Assembly: GCF_007833275.1 (NCBI RefSeq)
Contig: NZ_CP042241.1
Coordinates: 62,001-126,000, forward strand
Length of the DNA: 64,000 nucleotides
Direction: 5' to 3'
Source: Salarchaeum sp. JOR-1
Lineage (GTDB): Archaea; Halobacteriota; Halobacteria; Halobacteriales; Halobacteriaceae
The notes beneath the pieces were generated by a model that ran no database searches, was not told where the DNA came from, and saw only the letters and a list, made by a program, of their open reading frames with translations. Made by a program: the position numbers and the translations under genes. Positions 31,758 through 34,594 of this stretch are shown one piece after another. Within the stretch, counting starts at the first letter, position 1. Each line of letters starts with the position of its first letter.

Positions 31758-31941
31758 GGTCGCTGGACGCCCGTGAATTCGAAGCGCGCCCGGACTCGCT
31801 CTCCGTCGCTTCGACCGTCGAACCGCGGGCGTCGGCGATACGTGAAACGATGCGGAGGCCGAGGCCAGCGCCGTCCTCGCTGGCCGGGTATCCGGCGTCG
31901 ACGGCGCTGTCGCTCCCGGCCGCCCGCTCGCGTGTAGCCAT
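31758..31941 (-). pseudogene. C-terminal fragment of a histidine kinase
   Basis: On the minus strand the frame carries a HATPase_c end: GYPASEDGAGLGLRIVSRIA then DARGSTVEATESES, matching the G2 box (GxGLGL) and last helices of haloarchaeal sensor kinases. After ESESG the frame slips: the usual GGARFEFTGV appears only in the next frame (GARFEFTGV), so bases were lost. There is no H-box, N-box or sensor part. The remnant abuts the restriction-modification genes, which may have replaced the rest. An ATG at 31941 could still give a 75-aa peptide, but it has no likely function. Confidence 0.7.
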
Positions 31942-31986
31942 AACTCGCTACAAACCCATTTGCTCGCAGAGTGAGAAGACCGCCCG

Positions 31987-32835
31987 ATGGAACGAGGGTT
32001 CGACCACATCGGGAGCGCCGAGTTGAGCGAAGCGACGAAGGCCGAACTGCGGAGCGTCACTGACGGGTTCTTCGAGCGCCCCCTGGAGAAAGCCGGTAAT
32101 TTCGACTGGGAGGAGTTCAAGCGAAACGAGGCGTTCAAGGCGATCATGATGCCGTCGCCGCTGTTCTGGGTGCTTGCGAACTTCGAGCGGAGTTTCACGC
32201 AGAAGCTCGGCCAGCAGATGTACGAGAAGTTCGGGCGCGCGGTGGCGAACACGAACGATGCGGTTGGCGCGGCGGAGACCCAGTACGCCTGCACGAACCT
32301 CAACGTCGGCAGGGCCGAGGAAGACCGAATCGAGACCGTCATCTCCGAGTTGGCGGACGGCGAGCGCGACCCTGACTGGGACGCCGAGAAGCGGGAACTC
32401 CGCGACATCGACGCCCCGCCCGAGACCCGGAAACCCATCGGGACGGTGACGTGGGACCTCTGGGTGGAGGACTTCCGTGACGGCCGGCCGCTCGCCGCGG
32501 AAATCAAGACGCCGAAGCCGAACCGCGACCAGACGATGGAGTCGAAGCGCCAGATGCTGAAAACCGTCGCGGCGTACAAACACCGGGACGCCCCCACCCC
32601 CATCTGTCGGTTCGTGTTCCCGTTCAATCCCTACGGCAGTCTCGACGCGTACGAGTGGTGGCCGCCGCAGGCGTTCTTCGACGTGCACGCCGAGGACGGG
32701 ATGCTCATCGCGGACGGCTTCTGGGACGCCATCGGCGGCGAGGGGACGATGGAGGGCCTGTTCAACTTCCTCCTCGAAGAGTCCGAGGGAAACATCGAGA
32801 ACCTGAAGCAGTTAGCTGGGGACGAGACGCTCTAG
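31987..32835 (+). CDS. type II restriction endonuclease, TdeIII-like
   Basis: 282 aa. A PD-(D/E)xK core is visible: TVTWDLWVEDFRDGRPLA gives the metal Asp (157 or 162) and AAEIKTPKPN (Glu172, Lys174) the catalytic pair. The rest (FERPLEKAGNFDWEEFKRNE, FVFPFNPYG) matches, from memory, TdeIII-type enzymes, which are reported to cut GGNCC. The specificity here is not known. The methyltransferase lies 390 bases downstream, with the regulator between. GC content is lower than the neighbours, a sign of transfer. Its stop overlaps the convergent regulator by 4 bases. Confidence 0.75.
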   Translation: MERGFDHIGSAELSEATKAELRSVTDGFFERPLEKAGNFDWEEFKRNEAFKAIMMPSPLFWVLANFERSFTQKLGQQMYEKFGRAVANTNDAVGAAETQYACTNLNVGRAEEDRIETVISELADGERDPDWDAEKRELRDIDAPPETRKPIGTVTWDLWVEDFRDGRPLAAEIKTPKPNRDQTMESKRQMLKTVAAYKHRDAPTPICRFVFPFNPYGSLDAYEWWPPQAFFDVHAEDGMLIADGFWDAIGGEGTMEGLFNFLLEESEGNIENLKQLAGDETL

Positions 32836-33116
32836 TCCGCAAACGAGAGCGTGAGTTCCGACACGTCGGTCTCGTAGACGACGCCCCCGGAGTCGTTGCG
32901 AGTCTTCTCCACGAGAGCGGCGTCGACGAGTTCCTCCAGGTACGTGTGCGTGGACTCGCGGTGGGAGAGCCCGGTCACGTCGCTCGTCTCGGCGTGCACG
33001 TCGCGTAACGTCCCGCCCGCCGTCTCCCGGAGCGCGTTCAGGAGTCTGAGCCGCTTCTCGTTTCCGAGCGCAGAGCACACCGTCACGATGGCGTCGTCAT
33101 CGGAGGCTACCTCCAT
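32832..33116 (-). CDS. ArsR-like winged-helix regulator inside the R-M locus, 94 aa
   Basis: Starts MEVASDDDAIVTVCSALGNE. The winged helix is NEKRLRLLNALRETAGGTLR (helices 1-2), LSHRESTHTYLEELVDAALV (recognition helix and following) and GVVYETDVSELTLSFAD (wing). It sits between the endonuclease and the methyltransferase, convergent to the first and divergent from the second. That is where controller proteins of type II systems sit, but classical C proteins are XRE-type, so this would be a different sort. A T-rich box near 33140 (CGTTTTTGTC) gives a leaderless start at 33116. Its likely binding site is the palindrome pair at 33173-33220. Confidence 0.75.
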   Translation of the reverse strand: MEVASDDDAIVTVCSALGNEKRLRLLNALRETAGGTLRDVHAETSDVTGLSHRESTHTYLEELVDAALVEKTRNDSGGVVYETDVSELTLSFAD

Positions 33117-33172
33117 ACTCGCCGGGAGGCGCGGCGCGACAAAAACGCGTGCGGAGTGCGACGGCGAGTGAC

Positions 33173-33220
33173 CGGGTACCCGAAACCTAAATACCGCCAC
33201 GGCTAATGGGCGGGTACCCG
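33173..33220. promoter_or_regulatory. methyltransferase promoter with twin CGGGTACCCG palindromes
   Basis: Two identical perfect 10-base palindromes CGGGTACCCG lie at 33173-33182 and 33211-33220, with centres 38 bases apart. The TATA-like box CCTAAATACC (33186-33195) lies between them at about -30 from the ATG at 33221. The second copy ends at the base before the start codon. A protein bound to both would block or steer the methyltransferase promoter. Confidence 0.6.
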
Positions 33221-34594
33221 ATGAGAGCAATCGACTTATTCTGTGGCGCTGGTGGCTTTAGTGCCGGTTTCGAGGCGGCCGGCATCGACGTTCTCTATGG
33301 CTGTGATATCGCGGAGCGCGCCCTGGATACGTTCGACGCGAACCACGACGGCGACGGGCTCCGCCACGATATCAGCGACGGCGTCCCCCCAGAGGTAGCG
33401 GACGTCTCCGTCGACATCGTCTTCGGAAGCCCGCCCTGCAAGGGGTTCAGTGACGCACGGGGGTCGCGGCGGCTGGACGACGAACGAAACCAGCTCGTCT
33501 TCTCGTTCATCCAGTGGGTCGAGCACTTCCAGCCGAAGTACGTGATGATGGAGAACGTCGCGGGCATGACGACGATTAGCGACGAGTTCCTCGGAGCGAT
33601 AGAGCGCGAGTACGCGGACGCCGGCTACGCGGTGGACTGGGAGACGCTGAACGCGGCTGACTTCGGCGTCCCCCAGACGCGAGAGCGCGTCATCTACTTC
33701 GGCGTCCGCGACGACCTCGACGTGGAACCGTCCCTCCCCGAGGGCGGATACCGGGAGGCGAGCGAGGGTCAACTCACGCTGGCGGGTGAACTGATGCGTG
33801 GCTGGACGACCGTCTCCGACGCGCTCGAAGACCTCCCGGAGCCGACCGAGAACGGCGAGGTCAGCCTCCCCCCGCTGTCCGAGTATCCCGAGAACGACTA
33901 CCTCCCGCTCGTCCGCGACGGCGCCGAGACGACGTGGAACCACGTCGCGAAGGAGCCGTCGGACGACGAGGACACGCGCCACATCGTGGACGAGCTGCGC
34001 CCGGGCGAAATGTACCGTTCGAGCCGGTTCGGCGACCGCTACCGACAGGTCTGGGAGGTGCTCGAACATCGGTTCTCCGACGTCGAACAGGACGCCCTCC
34101 ACTTCATCGCCCGCCACCGCTCCCGGAAGGACTTCCGGATGAGCGGGAAGTCGGTCGGCGCGGTGCCCGACCACCTCATCGCCGACCACCTCGAACACGA
34201 CGAGGGCAGCGTCTACGACGCCCTCGAACGACTGCACGGGGACGGCTGGATTCGAACCGACGAAGAGGACGACACGCTCGGCTACGACCTGAACACGAAG
34301 TCGGGCATCCGCCCGCGGTACATGCGCCTCACTCCCGACGGTCAGTCGAACACGATTCTCACGACCGACTTCAACCCCCGAGACAAGCTCCACCCGACCG
34401 AGAACCGCGGGCTCTCCCTCCGGGAGGGCGCGCGCATCCAGAGTTTCCCGGACTCGTTCCGGTTCACGGGGTCGTTCGACGACATCGCCAACCAGATCGG
34501 GAACGCGGTACCGCCACTGATGGCCCAGCGCCTCGCCGACCACCTCCTCGACGTGCACGAGCGCGGGAGCCAGCACGTCACGGCGAGCGACTGA
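33221..34594 (+). CDS. DNA cytosine-5 methyltransferase
   Basis: 457 aa. Motif I DLFCGAGGFSAGFEAAG is at the start and motif IV GSPPCKGFS has the catalytic Cys73. Motif VI is MMENVAGM, motif VIII QTRERVIYFG and motif X GNAVPPLMA. The target recognition part (about residues 240-360) is long and holds a winged-helix-like stretch: PDHLIADHLEHDEGSVYDAL then ERLHGDGWIRTDEED. It should protect DNA from the neighbouring endonuclease. The first codons are A/T-rich compared with the region, another hint of transfer. ATG at 33221 fits the TATA box; an ATG at 33206 is less likely. Confidence 0.92.
   Translation: MRAIDLFCGAGGFSAGFEAAGIDVLYGCDIAERALDTFDANHDGDGLRHDISDGVPPEVADVSVDIVFGSPPCKGFSDARGSRRLDDERNQLVFSFIQWVEHFQPKYVMMENVAGMTTISDEFLGAIEREYADAGYAVDWETLNAADFGVPQTRERVIYFGVRDDLDVEPSLPEGGYREASEGQLTLAGELMRGWTTVSDALEDLPEPTENGEVSLPPLSEYPENDYLPLVRDGAETTWNHVAKEPSDDEDTRHIVDELRPGEMYRSSRFGDRYRQVWEVLEHRFSDVEQDALHFIARHRSRKDFRMSGKSVGAVPDHLIADHLEHDEGSVYDALERLHGDGWIRTDEEDDTLGYDLNTKSGIRPRYMRLTPDGQSNTILTTDFNPRDKLHPTENRGLSLREGARIQSFPDSFRFTGSFDDIANQIGNAVPPLMAQRLADHLLDVHERGSQHVTASD

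Follow-up and report, generated by a model that had tools for sequence, protein, structure and literature searches.

Within the window, by which we mean the whole 64-kb stretch of DNA analysed here, three adjacent genes make up a restriction-modification (R-M) locus. A TdeIII-like type II restriction endonuclease (R) of 282 aa is encoded on the plus strand at 31987-32835 (PF09520, RE_TdeIII, E 2.7e-39, residues 18-260), and its core, as read from the sequence, is of the PD-(D/E)XK type (..WDLWVEDF..AAEIKT..). A winged-helix (wHTH) regulator (C) of 94 aa, placed by a family search in an R-M-associated family, follows on the minus strand at 32832-33116, and a C5-cytosine DNA methyltransferase (M) of 457 aa on the plus strand at 33221-34594 (PF00145, E 2.8e-62; PADLOC MTase_II, 1103 bits). 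The regulator is convergent with R, the stop codons of the two genes overlapping in a shared CTAG, and divergent from M, from which it is separated by an intergenic region of ~105 bp. An earlier note on this DNA had described this order and these strands (endonuclease, convergent wHTH, methyltransferase), and both were confirmed, as were all of its coordinates. The system was classified as type II on the basis of an endonuclease of a known family with its cognate methyltransferase alongside, R and M being found together in six genomes.

The methyltransferase begins at motif I (MRAIDLFCGAGG), and an N-terminal HTH of the kind that characterizes the autoregulators M.SsoII and M.EcoRII was looked for on this protein and was absent. 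Further downstream, a PadR-like winged-helix segment was detected at aa 320-375 (34178-34345, plus strand), with matches to PF03551 (E 3.5e-4, sub-threshold) and to NCBIfam TIGR03433 (E 0.0023). This segment corresponds to the variable, target-recognition region of C5 methyltransferases, and might be a wHTH that serves target recognition.

With a third-codon GC content of 88% and a 51%-identical homologue in another genome (G009), the regulator can be taken as a real gene. No Pfam family matched it above cut-off, and its match to the ArsR model NF033788 was weak (17.5 bits, cut-off 55); HTH_5 and HTH_20 matches come from its relatives, and it is because of these that we label the protein an ArsR-like wHTH. 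It cannot be classed as an ArsR/SmtB metalloregulator, as it scores below the curated cut-off and has a single Cys and no metal-binding cysteine motif. An HTH_3/XRE match was also sought in the regulator and none was found, which places it outside the XRE/lambda-repressor-type fold. Thus, of the previous description as ArsR-like and not XRE-like, the second part stands, while the first holds only by way of the relatives. AlphaFold2 run on the regulator sequence alone gave a pLDDT of 45 and was set aside, and a PDB search with the regulator-family profile returned no relative.

The methyltransferase promoter lies in the region between C and M, with a TATA box, CCTAAATACC, read from the sequence at 33186-33195 (plus strand). 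The twin CGGGTACCCG palindromes that had been reported around this box, the second abutting the start codon, are indeed present. Palindrome 1 (33173-33182), a putative operator, is located directly upstream of the BRE/TATA, and palindrome 2 (33211-33220) ends one base ahead of the methyltransferase ATG at 33221. From the position of the TATA box, transcription would be expected to start inside palindrome 2 and to yield a leaderless message, so that this copy, covering the predicted start site, is a putative repressing operator. An alternative in-frame ATG at 33206 is ACG in a congeneric genome (G117), which makes 33221 the likelier start of M. On the minus strand, a weak TATA-like A/T run at 33139-33146, ~23-30 nt before the regulator begins, may be the promoter of the regulator.

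Apart from these two copies, CGGGTACCCG is not found in the 64-kb window (0.15 copies expected from dinucleotide shuffles), and the 2.52-Mb genome holds five; two of the three copies elsewhere were readable, and both appeared to be coding. An identical pair of perfect 10-bp palindromes within 60 bp arose in 9 of 60 shuffles of 64 kb, whereas the chance of such a pair at the ~105-bp methyltransferase promoter is ~2.5e-4. Therefore, the pair is not rare window-wide, and is improbable only because of its location in this promoter. At 10 bp with a central GTAC, CGGGTACCCG is short for a wHTH dimer, and it lacks a spacer, unlike the dyads of the sister groups described below.

Signs of restriction were found in the composition of the DNA of genomes that carry the system. 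The observed/expected ratios (O/E) of GGWCC were 0.11, 0.15, 0.02, 0.03 and 0.13 in sampled DNA of all five carrier lineages, the window included, and 1.02, 0.66 and 0.78 in haloarchaeal loci without a TdeIII-like system. Genome-wide, the counts of CGGWCCG are 318 and 203 in the two congeners, equal to 126 and 88 per Mb, whereas seven members of the family that are devoid of the system reach ~350-500 per Mb. The depletion in carriers points to GGWCC as the target and to long-lasting restriction, and by this indirect measure the system looks active. A GGWCC target fits TdeIII, which we take to belong to a GGNCC-like class. No GGNCC was found in the regulator-methyltransferase intergenic region (33117-33220), which excludes control by target-site methylation there.

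A protein search with the regulator across 392 Halobacteriales genomes returned four strong homologues (G009, G133, G181 and G130), all of which adjoin R-M genes. A five-member profile added G124, G074 and G113 from the same order and G488 and G496 from elsewhere in the phylum, and with a wider profile G636 and G638 were found as well. Within the resulting family of 12 archaeal genomes, all 12 regulators directly adjoin type II restriction genes, and these are of four unrelated kinds: TdeIII with a C5 methyltransferase in the window genome (G000) and G009; an HNH endonuclease with a C5 methyltransferase in G181, G130, G124, G074 and G113, which belong to one genus; an EcoRV-like endonuclease (PF09233, E 1.5e-13) with a D12 methyltransferase in G133; and a HincII-like endonuclease (PF09226, E 3.7e-8) with an Eco57I-type methyltransferase in G488. 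The start of the HincII-like endonuclease of G488 was also recognized in G496, G636 and G638, where it follows the regulator directly.

This contrasted with the control wHTH loci, none of which (0/36) lay near R-M genes. The controls comprised 24 lower-scoring wHTH loci and 12 lower-scoring matches in other orders, and were examined with PADLOC methyltransferase/restriction models at E <= 1e-8 in flanks of ~1.5 kb. A maximum-likelihood tree split ten R-M regulators from 16 controls by a 99/98 branch; the split was present in 100% of bootstrap trees, some internal branches being long. The searched plasmids and viral contigs contained no match. Membership of the regulator in a wHTH family dedicated to R-M is thus supported by the comparison of the family (12/12) with the control loci (0/36), and the association across four unrelated types suggests that the regulator is probably an archaeal equivalent of the controller proteins that time R-M systems in bacteria.

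Operator-like dyads were observed in two sister groups. In the divergent regulator/endonuclease promoters of the HNH group, GTTAC/GTAAC occurs 17 times, compared to 2.5 expected, and in shuffles of these promoters the best 5-mer of any kind reached 13. Four of the five promoters, those of G181, G130, G074 and G113, contain GTTAC-N8-GTAAC (array regions L044 6140-6300, L045 6700-6870, L058 7740-7910 and L059 6360-6510). In G181, G130 and G113, GTTAC half-sites stand at +0, +20, +33 (reverse) and +60, and with these 20- and 40-bp steps the direct copies would share one helix face. In the HincII group, TTGCCTA-NN-TAGGCAA is located immediately upstream of the regulator TATA in G488, G496 and G636, and TTGCC-N6-GGCAA at the same place in G638. 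Hence, two branches of the family have conserved dyads in the promoters expected to be under their control, and we regard this, although it stems from loci other than the window, as the strongest indirect support for the controller idea. The HNH-locus promoter of G124 contains no GTTAC; at the endonuclease start there is TCGTTG-N8-CAACGA (L057 6900-7070), possibly an operator switch that accompanied a diverged regulator. GTTAC is unlikely to be what the HNH system targets, as GTNAC shows no depletion there (O/E 1.06).

The TdeIII-like endonuclease was found in six of the 392 Halobacteriales genomes, in two of them with the controller. Between these two, the window genome and G009, identities are 51% for C, 51% for M and 65% for R; R is inverted in G009 relative to the window, and the divergent arrangement of C and M is shared. 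It had been asked whether the palindrome is kept at the methyltransferase promoter of homologous trios, and it is not: the trio of G009 is devoid of CGGGTACCCG, and the motif has been seen at this promoter only in the window and, as a single copy, in G117.

In the congener G117, the system occupies the same chromosomal place, with R 94% and M 93% identical, and a 320-bp segment with the regulator has given way to 16 bp. A relic of the regulator 3'-end, homologous to its last codons, is present behind the R stop codon, so that the regulator was deleted and not ancestrally absent. Palindrome 1 (10/10 bases) and the TATA box are intact in this genome, and palindrome 2 reads AGGATAACTG, with changes at 4/10 bases versus 1/38 in the remaining element (Fisher p 0.005); when the third-codon rate of 16% is taken as the reference, the difference is only suggestive (p 0.06). 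The conservation of palindrome 1 in a genome without the regulator is evidence against this copy serving the regulator alone. Immediately ahead of the endonuclease, G117 also carries an additional ~2.5 kb of sequence, the locus being otherwise syntenic (L047 5938-8511 vs. window 31901-31975).

Both the regulator and the palindromes are absent from G094 and two Halonotius genomes, which carry the R-M genes (R 77-80% and M 76-78% identical to those of the window). The earlier note had named loci of this kind as evidence that would speak against its proposal; such loci do exist, and we read them as evidence for an optional controller and not against the controller idea. As G117, G094 and the two Halonotius genomes illustrate, R-M can persist when the regulator is missing; the regulator is therefore dispensable and, judging from these comparisons, has been lost or left out more than once. 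In G094, the place of the regulator between R and M holds a small membrane-protein-like ORF, in minus orientation relative to R (L009 ~1220-1420).

Taken together, we consider it probable, though well short of certain, that the locus is a working type II R-M system, with GGWCC as the predicted target, that has its own small wHTH controller from an archaeal restriction-dedicated family acting mainly by repression of the methyltransferase promoter. In a new cell, this promoter, with its good TATA box and leaderless start, would fire immediately, and the controller, driven by a weak promoter, would build up slowly. A controller dimer would then bind CGGGTACCCG over the methyltransferase start (palindrome 2) and beside the BRE/TATA (palindrome 1), and would keep out TBP, TFB and RNA polymerase, cutting methyltransferase synthesis. 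With less methyltransferase, restriction would become effective, and methylation would be limited once enough had been made. Two additional elements are possible, both by way of palindrome 1: activation, and autoregulation of the controller, whose own promoter is situated downstream of this palindrome. Binding of the controller to the palindromes, and repression rather than activation as the outcome, are what we infer from the layout of the promoter, while the timing role after entry would follow by extrapolation from bacterial systems. More generally, it seems somewhat likely that Archaea own an R-M controller class of this kind, that is, a wHTH family with a fold unrelated to that of the bacterial XRE-type C proteins, taken up by four or more unrelated type II systems, each with an operator of its own, and easily lost while the system stays.

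The regulator might instead control the R-M genes via other sites, or act on its own promoter only, the palindromes being a core-promoter feature or the sites of another factor. The full conservation of palindrome 1 in G117, where the regulator is absent, would fit such a scenario, as would the trio of G009, in which CGGGTACCCG is lacking and the dyad-like stretches TTGTAGTCAATTTTGGCTACTAT and GGGGATACAGTACCCC are found. However, in the regulator-less lineage 4/10 bases of palindrome 2 are altered and its surroundings hardly at all, CGGGTACCCG is rare in the genome (5 copies), and a private motif is to be expected given that dyads vary among the regulators of the family; we consider this scenario unlikely. 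It is distinctly improbable that the methyltransferase represses itself, its internal PadR-like winged helix acting on the palindromes as in M.SsoII or M.EcoRII. The segment at aa 320-375 and the persistence of M and palindrome 1 in G117 after the regulator had gone would agree with this, but the PadR-like domain lies in the usual C5 target-recognition position, no N-terminal HTH of the kind seen in known autoregulators precedes motif I, at which the protein begins, and the Halonotius and G094 enzymes (76-78% identical) have palindrome-free promoters.

Control by methylation of the palindromes as target sites of the system itself, similar to CfrBI, has very little probability in our view. What speaks for it is that the motif is a palindrome that includes GGTACC, a hexamer with mild depletion in the window (6 copies where 19 are expected); yet carriers avoid GGWCC and not GGTACC in particular (GGTACC is also at 0.35-0.42 in non-carriers), and no GGNCC exists between 33117 and 33220. 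Given that the palindromes do not contain GGWCC, promoter methylation by the own system was rejected. Small ArsR-like regulators are abundant in haloarchaea, and the gene order of the trio differs between the window and G009, so that the wHTH could be a general haloarchaeal regulator placed beside R-M genes by chance. This is highly improbable as well, and was rejected on the basis of the control loci and the tree: the association is 12/12 against 0/36, it extends over four unrelated R-M types, and the R-M regulators form a separate 99/98 clade.

The dedicated controller that we favour resembles bacterial C proteins (C.PvuII, C.BamHI, C.Esp1396I and C.Kpn2I) in being a small DNA-binding protein within a type II locus, in having candidate symmetric operators at R-M promoters, namely the palindromes and dyads described here, and in the recurrent C-before-R operon of the G488 group and G009. 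It differs from them in its HTH_5/HTH_20-like wHTH, theirs being a lambda-repressor/XRE HTH, and in the archaeal TATA/BRE promoters and other operator sequences. Further, bacterial C genes are usually upstream of and co-directional with R, whereas in the window the regulator and R converge, and the regulator and M diverge. The claim that it sits at the bacterial C-gene position consequently fails for the window, although C-before-R occurs in G009 and in the G488-group relatives. By analogy, the regulator would work like a C protein but outside that family, having neither the XRE fold nor the gene position. Some C proteins repress the methyltransferase promoter, and one acts there alone (PMC12707154).

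A similar case, likened here by description, is RptR, which represses type I R-M defence islands of Gammaproteobacteria and whose minimal site is the 6-bp palindrome TAGCTA (PMC12255303). Like the regulator, it is small, R-M-proximal and strongly associated with R-M genes, and has a short palindromic site; unlike the regulator, it is bacterial and belongs to type I systems (PMC12255303). As its 6-bp site shows, even very short palindromes can function as genuine operators (PMC12255303). ArsR/SmtB-type and other haloarchaeal wHTH regulators share weak wHTH sequence similarity with the window regulator, which differs from the ArsR/SmtB type in the lack of a metal-binding cysteine motif and in its separate clade, the controls being located away from R-M genes. 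TdeIII-type R-M systems have the endonuclease family (PF09520) and the C5 methyltransferase class in common with the window locus, to which a wHTH controller is added.

A search of the open literature for an archaeal R-M controller, with REBASE and subscription papers outside its scope, found none. Controllers were absent from the main text of the archaeal and haloarchaeal R-M surveys in this literature, and in one archaeal survey a control-protein class appears in the supplementary profile list only (PMC10609329). Within the same scope, the view that no archaeal controller of this type had been described holds. The archaeal timing of restriction versus modification upon entry of an R-M system into a new cell also appears undescribed. 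If true, a dedicated wHTH family would represent a convergent answer, on TBP/TFB promoters, to the bacterial C-protein problem, and would make it possible to annotate, in R-M loci of archaea, controllers that XRE-based searches would overlook; the locus itself offers testable operators and a natural deletion (G117).

Several regulator-bearing systems looked decayed: G133 has a broken EcoRV-like endonuclease and D12 methyltransferase (L043 5893-7670), G130 a split HNH ORF (L045 6809-7502) and G113 a shortened methyltransferase (L059 4631-6394), and stops were seen in the endonuclease of G636, a draft genome (L067). Finally, GATC was strongly depleted in the HNH-carrying genus (O/E 0.16; L044, L045, L057, L058 and L059).
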